A DNA stretch of 64,000 bases from Sphingobacteriales bacterium (GCA_016200915.1 JACQDV010000017.1:1-64000), one strand, 5' to 3'. Shown: positions 35,337 to 39,551, counted from the stretch's first letter. Numbers and translations are program-made. Notes: generated by a model not told the origin, from the letters alone.

Positions 35337-36443
35337 ATGGCAAAAGCGGCTGCGGCAAAAAAGAAATCAATTCTTACTGAAAAATCGCTCGACTTTTTAA
35401 AGAACTATCACAATACACATTCACCGGTTGGTTTTGAAAGTGCCGGGCAAAAAGTGTGGTTAGAATACATTAAACCATATATCAACTCACATATTGTAGA
35501 TCCTTACGGAAGTGTGGCCGGCATCATCAACCCCAATCAGGCTTTTAAAGTAGTAATAGAAGCCCATGCTGATGAGATCAGCTGGTTTGTAAATTATATT
35601 ACCGGCGAGGGTCTAATTTATTTGAAAAGAAATGGTGGAGTGGATCATCAAATTGCTCCATCAAAAAGAGTGTTAGTTCATGGTAAAAAAGGAATGGTAA
35701 AAGCAGTGTTTGGATGGCCGGCTATTCACACCCGTATGGGAGGTGAAAAAGAAACCAGTCCGAAAGTAGATAACCTGTGGTTAGATTGCGGAGCCCGTTC
35801 AAAAAAAGAAGTGGAAAGTTTAGGCATACATGTAGGGGCAGTTGTTACCTATGAAGATGGATTTGAAGAACTGGCATATGGAAATTTAATTGCCCGTGCT
35901 TTTGATAACCGCATCGGCGGATTTATGATTGCTGAAGTGGCAAGGTTAATTCATGAAAACAAAAAGAAACTTCCTTATTCTTTATATGTAGTTAATGCGG
36001 TGCAGGAAGAAATAGGTTTACGTGGTGCCGAAATGATTGCCCGAAGAATTAAGCCCAACATCGCTATTGTTACTGATGTTACACATGATACTTCCACACC
36101 CATGATCAGCAAAACAGTAGAAGGCGATATTAGTTGTGGTAAAGGCCCATCTTTAGCAACAGCACCGGCTGTTCATAATAAGTTATTGACTATTGTAGAA
36201 GAGGTAGCTAAAAAATCAAGAATACCGGTACAATGGAGAGCATTAAGCCGCAGTACGGGCACAGATACCGATTCCTTTGCTTATGCAAATGACGGTTGCC
36301 CTTCTGTATTAATCTCTATCCCGCTGCGTTATATGCATACTACCGTAGAAATGCTGCATAAAGATGATATTGAAAACACCATTAAACTCATTTACGAAAC
36401 GCTATTGACTGTTTCTCCAAAAACCAATTTGAGTTACCTTTGA
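35337..36443 (+). CDS. M42-family metallopeptidase (aminopeptidase)
   Basis: 368 aa, cytoplasmic. Seen: AHADEISWFV with the first His and Asp, DNRIGGFMI bridging Asp, QEEIGLRGAE catalytic Glu pair, DVTHDTSTP and the late MHTTVEMLH His. Known: M42 enzymes are large dodecameric aminopeptidases using two metal ions. It has its own promoter and is followed 5 bp after its stop by a small membrane gene, so the three following genes may share its transcript. Confidence 0.93.
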   Translation: MAKAAAAKKKSILTEKSLDFLKNYHNTHSPVGFESAGQKVWLEYIKPYINSHIVDPYGSVAGIINPNQAFKVVIEAHADEISWFVNYITGEGLIYLKRNGGVDHQIAPSKRVLVHGKKGMVKAVFGWPAIHTRMGGEKETSPKVDNLWLDCGARSKKEVESLGIHVGAVVTYEDGFEELAYGNLIARAFDNRIGGFMIAEVARLIHENKKKLPYSLYVVNAVQEEIGLRGAEMIARRIKPNIAIVTDVTHDTSTPMISKTVEGDISCGKGPSLATAPAVHNKLLTIVEEVAKKSRIPVQWRALSRSTGTDTDSFAYANDGCPSVLISIPLRYMHTTVEMLHKDDIENTIKLIYETLLTVSPKTNLSYL

Positions 36444-36448
36444 AGCTT

Positions 36449-36625
36449 ATGAAAATAATTCTTCTTTATGTTGACCCGGGCAGCACCAGTTATTTATTAC
36501 AGGTGATTATTGCTGCTATTGTAGGGGTGGCGGTTTATTTTAAAACCATCTGGTGGAGAATAAAATCTTTTTTTTACAAAGGAGATAAAAAAGAAACGTC
36601 AACAGAAGATAATACTGATGAATAA
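36449..36625 (+). CDS. tiny conserved membrane protein
   Basis: 58 aa from the ATG at 36449 (an upstream TTG at 36440 overlaps the peptidase stop). It has the opening YVDPGSTSYLLQ, one transmembrane helix (residues ~9-30), then WWRIKSFFYKGDKK and an acidic tail. I recall the DPGSxSYL-type opening as recurrent in tiny proteins next to methyltransferase and sulfatase-like genes, but cannot verify it here. Its last 8 bp overlap the methyltransferase start, which implies coupled translation. Function unknown. Confidence 0.8.
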   Translation: MKIILLYVDPGSTSYLLQVIIAAIVGVAVYFKTIWWRIKSFFYKGDKKETSTEDNTDE

Positions 36626-37991
36626 TTTGCCGGCTCATCCTTCTTCGTTTAAAGATCCTGCAGGATTTATGTTTGTTGCAGATGGCATTTACTACCGCCA
36701 GGTTAATATATTTGGCAGCGAAGATTATTCGTTACTGATGAGTTCCGGTTTATATGAAAAGCTTATTTCAAAAAACAGGCTGATCCGTCACACAGAAATT
36801 GATAACATTAAAAGTGAGGCATCGCAATGGTTCAAAACTTTACAACCTGAACAATTACCTTTTATAAGTTATCCTTACGAATGGAGTTTTGATCAGCTGA
36901 AAGACGCCGCTTTACTTACACTTACTATTCAGAAAGAAGCATTAAATCATGGAATGACATTGAAAGATGCCACGCCTTTTAACGTACAATGGTTAAATGG
37001 AAAAGCAATTTTTATTGATACCCTTTCATTTGAAAAACACAAAGATGGAGAACCATGGATTGCTTACAAACAATTTTGTGAATGCTTTTTAGCTTCCCTC
37101 CTGCTGATGCACTATCGCAATAATGAGCTGAATAAATTACTCGTGAGCTTTCCCAACGGAATTCCAACGCCAATAGTTTCATCACTCCTGCCTTTTAAAA
37201 CAAAATTAAACCTGAATCTTTACCTGCACATTCACCTGCAGGCGAAAATGCAAAAGAAAGGAGCTGATGATAAGCAGCAAAACAAAAGGTCTTTATCAAC
37301 CACTCAACTGGTAAACATAATTGAGAGCCTTCGCAATCTTATTAAAAAGCTTTCGCCTGTCAGCGCCAAAACAACCTGGAATAATTATTATGATGAAACG
37401 ATCTTAAGTAATGCTTATCTCCAGCATAAACAAGAGTTGGCAAAAAGCTTCCTATCGGCTATTCAATTTAATTCACTTATTGATTTAGGAGCAAACAAAG
37501 GCGAGTTTTCATTGCTGTTTAAAGATAAAGCTGCAAAGATCGTTGCTGCTGATTTTGATGCTGCTTGTATCAATGAATTGTACCTGCATATCAAATCACA
37601 AAAGTTAAACAATATTTTTCCATTGGTAATCGATCTTGCTAATCCAAGTCCCGCCATTGGCTGGGCCAATGAAGAACGAAATAGTTTCTGGAACAGGGTC
37701 AATACCGATGTTATAATGGCGTTAGCACTCATTCATCATCTTGCTATCAGCTTTAATATCAGCTTTGCCATGATGGCTGAACTATTTAGCCAAAAAACAA
37801 ATTATCTGCTGATAGAGTTTGTGCCAAAGCATGATCCTAAAGTACAGCAATTACTCAGCCATCGTAAAGATGTGTTTGATCATTATACACAAACAGATTT
37901 TGAACAAAGCTTTTCTGTTTATTTTCAAGTACTGAAAAAAGAAACCATACAAACCACCGACAGGATTTTATACCTGATGAAAACAAAATAA
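36618..37991 (+). CDS. class I SAM-dependent methyltransferase, NoeA-like
   Basis: 457 aa. The N-terminal ~240 residues form a separate, unassigned domain (GIYYRQVNIFGSEDYSLLMSSGLYEKL) with kinase-like traces (LKDATPFNVQWLNGKAIFIDTLSF). The C-terminal part is a Rossmann methyltransferase with LIDLGANKGEFSLLF near residue 288 and VAADFDAACI after it. Overlaps the tiny membrane gene by 8 bp and is 3 bp from the sulfatase-like gene. Substrate unknown; a surface glycan or lipid is plausible (inference). Confidence 0.82.
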   Translation: MNNLPAHPSSFKDPAGFMFVADGIYYRQVNIFGSEDYSLLMSSGLYEKLISKNRLIRHTEIDNIKSEASQWFKTLQPEQLPFISYPYEWSFDQLKDAALLTLTIQKEALNHGMTLKDATPFNVQWLNGKAIFIDTLSFEKHKDGEPWIAYKQFCECFLASLLLMHYRNNELNKLLVSFPNGIPTPIVSSLLPFKTKLNLNLYLHIHLQAKMQKKGADDKQQNKRSLSTTQLVNIIESLRNLIKKLSPVSAKTTWNNYYDETILSNAYLQHKQELAKSFLSAIQFNSLIDLGANKGEFSLLFKDKAAKIVAADFDAACINELYLHIKSQKLNNIFPLVIDLANPSPAIGWANEERNSFWNRVNTDVIMALALIHHLAISFNISFAMMAELFSQKTNYLLIEFVPKHDPKVQQLLSHRKDVFDHYTQTDFEQSFSVYFQVLKKETIQTTDRILYLMKTK

Positions 37992-37994
37992 CGG

Positions 37995-39551
37995 ATGCTC
38001 AAAAAACTTTACCATAAAATAAAATACTTTCACTTTGTTCTGCTGCCCGTTTTTTTCATGCTGCATGTAATCAATTATTATTACGGGCTTATTCCACGGG
38101 ATATTATATTGCGGCATAGTTTTGCTTATACGGCATTAACCGTTTCTGTTTTTCTGTTTGCCCAGTTTTATTATCGTGACTTGGTGAAAAGCTGTTTGTT
38201 TTCTTTTATTGCATTAGGTTATTTCTTTGGTTTTGGCTCAGTAAAGGATTTTTTATCTGAATCCCACACCTTAAGCAGGCTAAGTTCGTACAGCATTTTG
38301 CTACCACTGGTTTTTATACTGCTTTTATCATTACTTATTTATTTAAAAAAATCGTCAGGAAATTTTAACCGGCTTACGGCTTTTCTTTTCATTGCCATCA
38401 GTATTAACCTGCTGATTGAGCTGTTTTTTTTAACGAAAAATATCATTAACAAGAACGATATAAAAAATGATTTGGGTGACCCCCAATTGATAGCAGTGAA
38501 AAAATATGTTCCCTGCGATACCTGTACACAACCCGATGTCTATTTCATTGTGTTTGACGAGTTCACCAGCAGCGGCTGTTTGAAGCAATACTGGAACTAC
38601 TCTAACGATACACTGAATAATTATTTAAAGGATAATCATTTCTTTGTTTCAGAAAAATCGCATAGTAATTATTCTTTTACCACCTTTTCATTGTCCGGCA
38701 CAATGGAAATGCAATACCTTAATCTGCCGCCTGACTATACTGAAGCAGGTGCTATTGATCTTGCCAGGGGTCAGTACACTTTATTCAATAATGCGGTGGT
38801 GAATATTTTTGAAAAACAGGGATACGAGTTTCATAATTATTCCATCTTCGATATGAAGAATCATCCTGCTTACAATGGAATATATTTTAATAAGCTGACT
38901 GATCTTTTCATTTCGGATGAAACATTGTTTGGCAGAACAATGAGAGATATTGGCTGGAATTTAACCAATCCTTTTGTTCGAAACCAGCGGGTTAGAGATT
39001 CATTAGCCCATGTGGCAACGTTTAACATAAGAGATCCATACATAAAAAAAACAATTGCTGATGCCAAAGATGCAGTAAGTGCACAGGATTCAACAAAAAA
39101 AGATTTCTTCTATTTCCACTTTATGTTGCCGCATGATCCGTTTATTTATGATTCAACAGGTCAGCCACGTTCATTTGGATATATGGACATAAAACAACGC
39201 TACCTTGACCAGTTAAAATATGCCAGTAAAGTATTGATTGATTTAGTGAACTATATTAAAGCTAACAGCAAAAACAAAGCAGTAATTATTATACAGGGCG
39301 ATCATGGTTTTAAATCATGGCCCGGAGAAGAGAACTTTGAAGAAAAAGCATTTGAAAACCTAAACGCTGTTTATCTGCCTGATGAAAACTATACACACTA
39401 TTATGATGGTGTAAGTCCGGTTAATACTTTCCGCCTTTTATTCAATCATTACTTTCATACTAACTATAATTTATTGCAGGATAAATCCATTCAACTTTTC
39501 TTTAAACCCGACCTTAAGAAGATATATGGAATGCGACAGAAGAATTCTTAA
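37995..39551 (+). CDS. membrane sulfatase-like (alkaline-phosphatase superfamily) enzyme
   Basis: 518 aa. About five membrane helices in residues 10-150, then an extracytoplasmic domain of the alkaline phosphatase superfamily: VYFIVFDEF near 185 (metal Asp), SNYSFTTFSLSG near 228 (Thr nucleophile candidates), HFMLPHDPF near 375 and IIQGDHGF near 435 (metal Asp/His). There is no sulfatase Cys, so it is not a formylglycine sulfatase. Known relatives are phosphotransferases such as LtaS and EptA. It is probably a phospho-group transferase or hydrolase at the cell surface (inference). Confidence 0.8.
   Translation: MLKKLYHKIKYFHFVLLPVFFMLHVINYYYGLIPRDIILRHSFAYTALTVSVFLFAQFYYRDLVKSCLFSFIALGYFFGFGSVKDFLSESHTLSRLSSYSILLPLVFILLLSLLIYLKKSSGNFNRLTAFLFIAISINLLIELFFLTKNIINKNDIKNDLGDPQLIAVKKYVPCDTCTQPDVYFIVFDEFTSSGCLKQYWNYSNDTLNNYLKDNHFFVSEKSHSNYSFTTFSLSGTMEMQYLNLPPDYTEAGAIDLARGQYTLFNNAVVNIFEKQGYEFHNYSIFDMKNHPAYNGIYFNKLTDLFISDETLFGRTMRDIGWNLTNPFVRNQRVRDSLAHVATFNIRDPYIKKTIADAKDAVSAQDSTKKDFFYFHFMLPHDPFIYDSTGQPRSFGYMDIKQRYLDQLKYASKVLIDLVNYIKANSKNKAVIIIQGDHGFKSWPGEENFEEKAFENLNAVYLPDENYTHYYDGVSPVNTFRLLFNHYFHTNYNLLQDKSIQLFFKPDLKKIYGMRQKNS

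Follow-up and report, generated by a model that had tools for sequence, protein, structure and literature searches.

Three adjoining genes, encoding a tiny membrane protein with a Y-x-D-P-G motif (the DPG protein), a kinase-methyltransferase and a membrane enzyme of the AlkP superfamily, almost certainly form one functional unit. By homology, this trio is related to noeA and noeB, root-nodulation genes of Sinorhizobium. New here are the observations that the DPG protein and the kinase-methyltransferase co-occur almost without exception, that the DPG protein is fused once to the AlkP enzyme, that a phosphonate cassette replaces the kinase-methyltransferase at the same site in some relatives, and that a DPG-related tiny protein is encoded between a sulfotransferase and an arylsulfotransferase wherever we find it. 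As an explanation of the whole, we consider it an even call that the trio decorates an envelope molecule with a small acidic head group, the group being written inside the cell and transferred outside.

A three-gene locus conserved across phyla

The window is the whole 64,000-nucleotide stretch of Sphingobacteriales bacterium DNA that was analysed, and its closest relatives are Chitinophagaceae and Sphingobacteriales records. The initial annotation had described a trio in which genes 1 and 2 overlap by 8 bp and genes 2 and 3 are separated by 3 bp, and had singled out the opening of the DPG protein. On re-reading, the ORFs agree with this description in every respect, and all lie on the + strand (Table 1). 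The gene upstream, an M42 glutamyl aminopeptidase, is separated from the DPG gene by 5 bp. It is a family-specific site anchor that keeps its position in relatives with either module. It is a conserved neighbour in the window's family only and probably lies outside the system.

Among 89 homologous loci, the DPG gene adjoins the kinase-methyltransferase gene in 85, so the linkage goes beyond chance or local synteny. The two genes nearly always overlap or lie within ~110 bp, and three of the four loci with no DPG gene beside the kinase-methyltransferase start at or near a contig end. The initial annotation had proposed a search for adjacency in other genomes and named restriction to one lineage as grounds for abandoning the idea. 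Sets are present in Bacteroidota, Chloroflexota, Planctomycetota, Gemmatimonadota, Armatimonadota, KSB1 and proteobacterial lineages, with differing flanks and, in some lineages, a shuffled gene order (AlkP-MT-DPG, DPG-AlkP-MT-AlkP). The Chitinophagaceae site is itself constant, with LuxE-like, lipoprotein-like, UbiA-like and M42 peptidase genes upstream, as would be expected if housekeeping genes had simply stayed side by side within a single lineage without working together. However, the spread over many phyla, the shuffled order, the near-perfect co-occurrence and the DPG-AlkP fusion leave mere neighbourhood with a negligible likelihood. Lineage-only synteny was rejected on these grounds and could be revived only by strongly biased locus sampling. 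A defence system was also rejected as a reading of the trio, as a PADLOC scan gave no meaningful match.

Table 1. Coordinates of the trio, its functional positions and related loci. Positions without a locus number are those of the window.
Feature	Position	Strand	Remarks
M42 glutamyl aminopeptidase gene, upstream neighbour	35337-36443	+	PF05343, 3.6e-76
Tiny membrane protein ORF (DPG, gene 1)	36449-36625	+	58 aa, opening MKIILLYVDPGSTSYLL
NoeA-type kinase-methyltransferase ORF (gene 2)	36618-37991	+	457 aa
N-terminal kinase-like domain, ~residues 1-222	36618-37283	+	motifs, spacing, Lani_1194 analysis
Kinase catalytic loop K116-D117-A-T-P-F-N122	36963-36983	+	sub-threshold alignment with WbdD kinase loop
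D134, expected Mg-binding Asp (DFG position)	37017-37019	+	64/64
Class I SAM methyltransferase domain, C-terminal, ~residues 238-457	37329-37988	+	
H373-H374, aligned with WbdD H132-H133	37734-37739	+	64/64
Membrane AlkP-superfamily ORF (gene 3), NoeB-like	37995-39551	+	518 aa
Five TM helices, residues 2-28, 35-60, 63-89, 99-119, 125-151	37998-38447	+	AF2 model
D188, expected metal ligand	38556-38558	+	57/57
T229, expected catalytic nucleophile	38679-38681	+	Thr 56/57, Ser 1; no Cys for formylglycine
H375 and H380 (HFMLPHDP motif)	39117-39134	+	57/57 each
D436-H437, expected metal ligands	39300-39305	+	57/57 and 56/57
DPG protein fused in frame to AlkP-enzyme N-terminus	L172:2822-4384		520 aa
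71-aa DPG gene between nodL and noeA	L102:5748-5960; L107:4748-4963		L102, S. meliloti 1021 pSymA
Phosphonate cassette, four genes	L117:6662-11239; also L118, L119, L120		
YxGPG loci	L176:5274-8162; L177:5592-8388; L178; L179; L186; L187		

The tiny protein tracks the kinase-methyltransferase

The DPG protein has one predicted TM helix (residues 16-34) and a basic C-terminal tail. Only Y7 and Q18 are invariant among 41 diverse homologues, while D9, P10, G13 and S14 are each kept in at least 90%, and in about one fifth of homologues the N-terminus resembles a signal peptide that ends just before the Y. A Pfam search with the protein returned no family, and a literature search on the DPG motif found nothing.

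This protein is a dedicated partner of the kinase-methyltransferase. In genome searches that scored a limited number of first-look candidates, a DPG profile matched nine of 296 phylum genomes, all of them with the kinase-methyltransferase, though the profile was built from these same genomes. With an enlarged profile, 197 family genomes yielded DPG in 59, a full-length or split kinase-methyltransferase in 55 and both in 54 (P 2e-41 assuming independent genomes; because the genomes are related, hypergeometric P values are a guide only). In a class sample of 395 genomes, the kinase-methyltransferase is present in the same locus in 23 of the 23 genomes with a DPG match (E < 1e-7). The fusion joins the DPG protein to the third member of the trio (Table 1).

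A kinase-like domain joined to a probable phosphate methyltransferase

The initial annotation had given gene 2 a large unassigned N-terminal domain. The domain is kinase-like by R27, D117, N122 and D134, which represent an Arg at the K72 position and the equivalents of D166, N171 and D184. All four are kept in 64 of 64 homologues, NoeA included; R27 is likely the Lys72 equivalent, and the motif spacing (D+5=N) is that of protein kinases. Gene 2 shares 30% identity over 97% with S. meliloti NoeA from pSymA (tblastn against plasmids, for which the annotation used is incomplete), and its domain order, kinase-like and then class I SAM methyltransferase, together with this full-length homology, is that of a NoeA-type enzyme. 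The kinase domain alone, run as a profile against the PDB, had no match, so the assignment rests on these motifs and on PMC9758233, where the portion concerning the homologue Lani_1194 makes the same assignment (Arg/Asp/Asn/Asp). Structure models were built from window and fetched-locus rows, with plasmid-derived rows left out. The AF2 model of gene 2 is confident (pLDDT 92.8, pTM 0.93), and a fold search with the whole model gave no kinases among the 50 matches listed.

For the C-terminal half, Pfam gives a weak Methyltransf_23 match, and the best PDB profile match of gene 2 is WbdD (3.6e-06). D289, G295, H373, H374 and E400 are present in 64 of 64 homologues. The His pair aligns with WbdD His132/His133, which lie next to the phosphate that receives the methyl group and whose mutation abolishes methylation (PMC3482155), and invariant R449 may correspond to WbdD R203.

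A five-TM membrane enzyme of the AlkP superfamily

Gene 3 scores above the Pfam Sulfatase cut-off (PF00884, 2.3e-10, 40.7 bits vs 25), and the top fold matches of its AF2 model (pLDDT 90.6) are MCR-1, PbgA, EptA, EptC and S1 sulfatases, at modest TM-scores. With its five TM helices and its conserved metal-ligand and Thr positions, which we take to correspond to LtaS/EptA active-site residues, gene 3 belongs in the LtaS/EptA superfamily, as first annotated. A formylglycine (S1) sulfatase was rejected, as the nucleophile position, in the motif NYxxTxFS, is Thr in 56 of 57 homologues and there is no CxPxR-type Cys/Ser. The enzyme's role as a transferase stays putative because PF00884 also takes in hydrolases and sulfatases.

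Roughly 26 of the 89 loci, mostly in Anaerolineae, have no AlkP gene beside the DPG-methyltransferase pair, an upper bound because the A2/A5 AlkP profiles under-detect distant AlkP genes. The AlkP enzyme may act in trans or be dispensable in these loci. At L046, L057, L063 and other Anaerolineae loci, the pair stands downstream of topoisomerase I and is followed in most by a membrane protein of ~330 aa with no Pfam match. Tandem AlkP copies follow the kinase-methyltransferase in about one tenth of loci (L034, L035, L042, L059, L064, L083, L086, L100, L101), possibly serving different acceptors.

Phosphonate and sulfate counterparts

Five of the 197 family genomes carry DPG with no kinase-methyltransferase. 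In four of these (L117-L120), a phosphonate cassette lies between the DPG and AlkP genes, at the same site. It encodes a PEP mutase fused to a cytidylyltransferase (TIGR02320, 2e-119, with PF01467), a phosphonopyruvate decarboxylase (Ppd; TIGR03297, 9e-124), an iron alcohol dehydrogenase and a CDP-glycerol-type transferase (PF04464), and its PEP mutase is found in these four of the 197 genomes only. In the fifth genome, which is incomplete, a truncated PF04464-like gene adjoins DPG at the end of a contig. Because the cassette occupies the site of the kinase-methyltransferase, phosphate-methylating and phosphonate writers appear to stand in for each other while their partners stay the same. The predicted product of the cassette is hydroxyethylphosphonate activated as a CMP ester, for which the Fom1-type PEP mutase-cytidylyltransferase is a precedent (PMC6697681). 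The Pnt pathways and Fom1 share with the cassette a PEP mutase fused to a PF01467 cytidylyltransferase, plus Ppd; the difference is that the cassette belongs to four relatives and not to the window. PMC6697681 makes no mention of a sulfatase, alkaline phosphatase or CDP-glycerol, and a literature search on PntC/pepM gave nothing useful.

The second counterpart involves sulfate. Four weak matches of the DPG profile are short YxGPG proteins, and a dedicated YxGPG profile has six matches in the 395 genomes. At all six loci, the YxGPG gene sits between arylsulfotransferase and PAPS-type sulfotransferase genes. The alignment of the two small families has a probability of 95.5%, and the DPG and YxGPG proteins, both short membrane proteins, are probably homologous. 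A literature search on the arylsulfotransferase-sulfotransferase pair gave nothing useful.

Relationship to named systems

No named system with this set had been recognised in the initial annotation, a view that the homology of genes 2 and 3 to NoeA and NoeB overturns. The closest parallel is the nodL-noeA-noeB operon of S. meliloti (nod box n5). In addition to the homology of noeA to gene 2, NoeB is an AlkP-superfamily protein that matches the gene-3 profile (1.6e-07), a NoeB-like gene is adjacent and on the same strand in the window too, and an unnamed DPG gene lies between nodL and noeA in Sinorhizobium/Ensifer. Unlike the window trio, the operon is symbiotic, with a Medicago host-range phenotype, and for noeA and noeB as host-range nodulation genes the relevant passages of PMC4053727 and PMC9048898 offer a chemical role only as a hypothesis. 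NodL is also missing from the window, where the upstream gene is the M42 peptidase and the trio contains no acetyltransferase, but nodL defines the nodulation operon and not the NoeA/NoeB families. NoeB itself is distant from the window enzyme, at 17% identity.

A 2022 Legionella survey (PMC9758233) also describes, in the part drawn on here, a kinase-methyltransferase with conserved neighbours, and notes NoeA/NoeB. In its Lani_1193/Lani_1194/Lani_1195 set from Legionella anisa, the kinase-methyltransferase has the same domain order and an AlkP-fold neighbour, with conserved neighbours in 65% and 38% of 816 neighbourhoods. That part of the survey differs from our account in treating the proteins as putative effectors and in making no mention of phosphonate or sulfate counterparts. 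A literature search for a paper describing the trio gave nothing useful. The initial annotation would have counted a published function for the methyltransferase outside the envelope against its proposal, and we found none.

WbdD of E. coli O9a is likewise a bifunctional kinase and phosphate methyltransferase with a His pair at the methyl-transfer site. However, WbdD has the methyltransferase first, then the kinase and a coiled coil, and is linked to ABC-transporter O antigen, whereas the window enzyme is a kinase-methyltransferase of 457 aa. The EptA/MCR-1/PbgA/LtaS group resembles gene 3 in its five TM helices, outside AlkP domain and metal-ligand/Thr positions, but at a TM-score of ~0.37 by query length and 11-15% identity. 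A sequence search with gene 3 matched no member of that group.

Proposed head-group transfer and its alternatives

The initial annotation had proposed an envelope-modifying unit, perhaps one that attaches a phosphate-linked group and methylates it. The kinase-like domain, the WbdD His pair, the membrane AlkP enzyme and the phosphonate swap lend this idea partial, indirect support. In such a scheme, the NoeA-type kinase domain would work at the cytoplasmic face, phosphorylating a hydroxyl group on a carrier that is either a lipid or a glycan-lipid, and the C-terminal domain would methylate that phosphate by WbdD's chemistry. Methyl phosphate as the product of the kinase-methyltransferase is the part of the scheme that we think somewhat probable. 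The carrier would then reach the outer face, where the NoeB-like AlkP enzyme would take methyl phosphate onto Thr229 and hand it to an acceptor, either glycan or lipid, in the way that EptA/MCR enzymes transfer phosphoethanolamine; transfer of this group by the AlkP enzyme is a tentative suggestion that we hold a little short of evenly. The DPG protein would be a membrane subunit that joins writer and transferase or holds the carrier.

The alternatives differ in which step they change. The kinase step would be lost if the N-terminal domain were a degenerate substrate-binding kinase and the methyltransferase acted on something other than phosphate. An inactive or altered kinase is possible because the domain has no PDB relative by sequence and no kinases are among the listed fold matches; its motifs are also atypical, with Arg replacing the usual Lys, and no ion-pair Glu was identified in Lani_1194 in the relevant part of PMC9758233. 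Nevertheless, four catalytic-type positions that never vary in 64 homologues, NoeA among them, and an invariant phosphate-binding His pair make degeneracy quite improbable. A stronger competitor, though still an unlikely one, keeps both reactions and gives them WbdD's role, capping a polyprenol-linked glycan at its non-reducing end with methyl phosphate and terminating the chain inside the cell, with the AlkP enzyme working separately, for example by adding phosphoethanolamine or phosphoglycerol from a membrane phospholipid. Among solved structures the closest relative is WbdD; phosphoethanolamine transferases come closest to the AlkP fold, and several homologues lie among glycan genes (L017, L020, L104, L106). 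At L021, a divergent kinase-methyltransferase directly follows two Wzm/Wzt-like ORFs in an O-antigen ABC-transporter-like cluster, without DPG and AlkP. Yet in the window and most family members no glycan cluster stands beside the trio, and the 457-aa protein has no room for a coiled-coil ruler region. Furthermore, the phosphonate cassette retains the same DPG and AlkP genes even with a CDP-glycerol-type transferase of its own, which suggests that the AlkP enzyme acts on the swapped group.

That action could also be removal, with the AlkP enzyme a hydrolase that edits what the kinase-methyltransferase has written, so that the modification could be reversed or trimmed. Phosphodiesterases and sulfatases belong to PF00884, and S1 sulfatases also rank high among the fold matches, but the five-TM architecture and Thr nucleophile are transferase-like, tandem AlkP copies fit several acceptors better than one eraser, and in the sulfate set the same slot is filled by an arylsulfotransferase, a transfer enzyme. 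We consider a hydrolase unlikely.

Head-group transfer also accommodates how writers and outside enzymes pair. Phosphate and phosphonate ester writers occur with AlkP and a sulfate writer with a sulfotransferase, with a tiny protein in each set. The simplest account would be that the group is written within the cell, crosses the membrane on a carrier and is handed over on the outer side. More speculatively, tiny Y-x-x-P-G proteins may serve a general 'head-group relay', each pairing a cytoplasmic writer of a small acidic ester with a transferase that handles the same chemistry outside. Its versions could be kinase-methyltransferase plus AlkP for methyl phosphate, the CMP-phosphonate cassette plus AlkP for hydroxyethylphosphonate, and sulfotransferase plus arylsulfotransferase for sulfate. 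If true, the first version would explain noeA/noeB, to which our comparison offers a concrete product idea, methyl phosphate, and a third operon gene, DPG. The link to phosphonate and sulfate counterparts suggests a common trans-membrane carriage of small charged groups for envelope decoration.

In a record titled as a Rickettsia typhi MAG, a name that looks doubtful, the trio adjoins ORFs that resemble nonulosonic-acid synthesis genes (L038). One genome carries a second DPG gene (L122:6035-6187) with no kinase-methyltransferase or AlkP match nearby, and the neighbours of this gene resemble polysaccharide-export genes.
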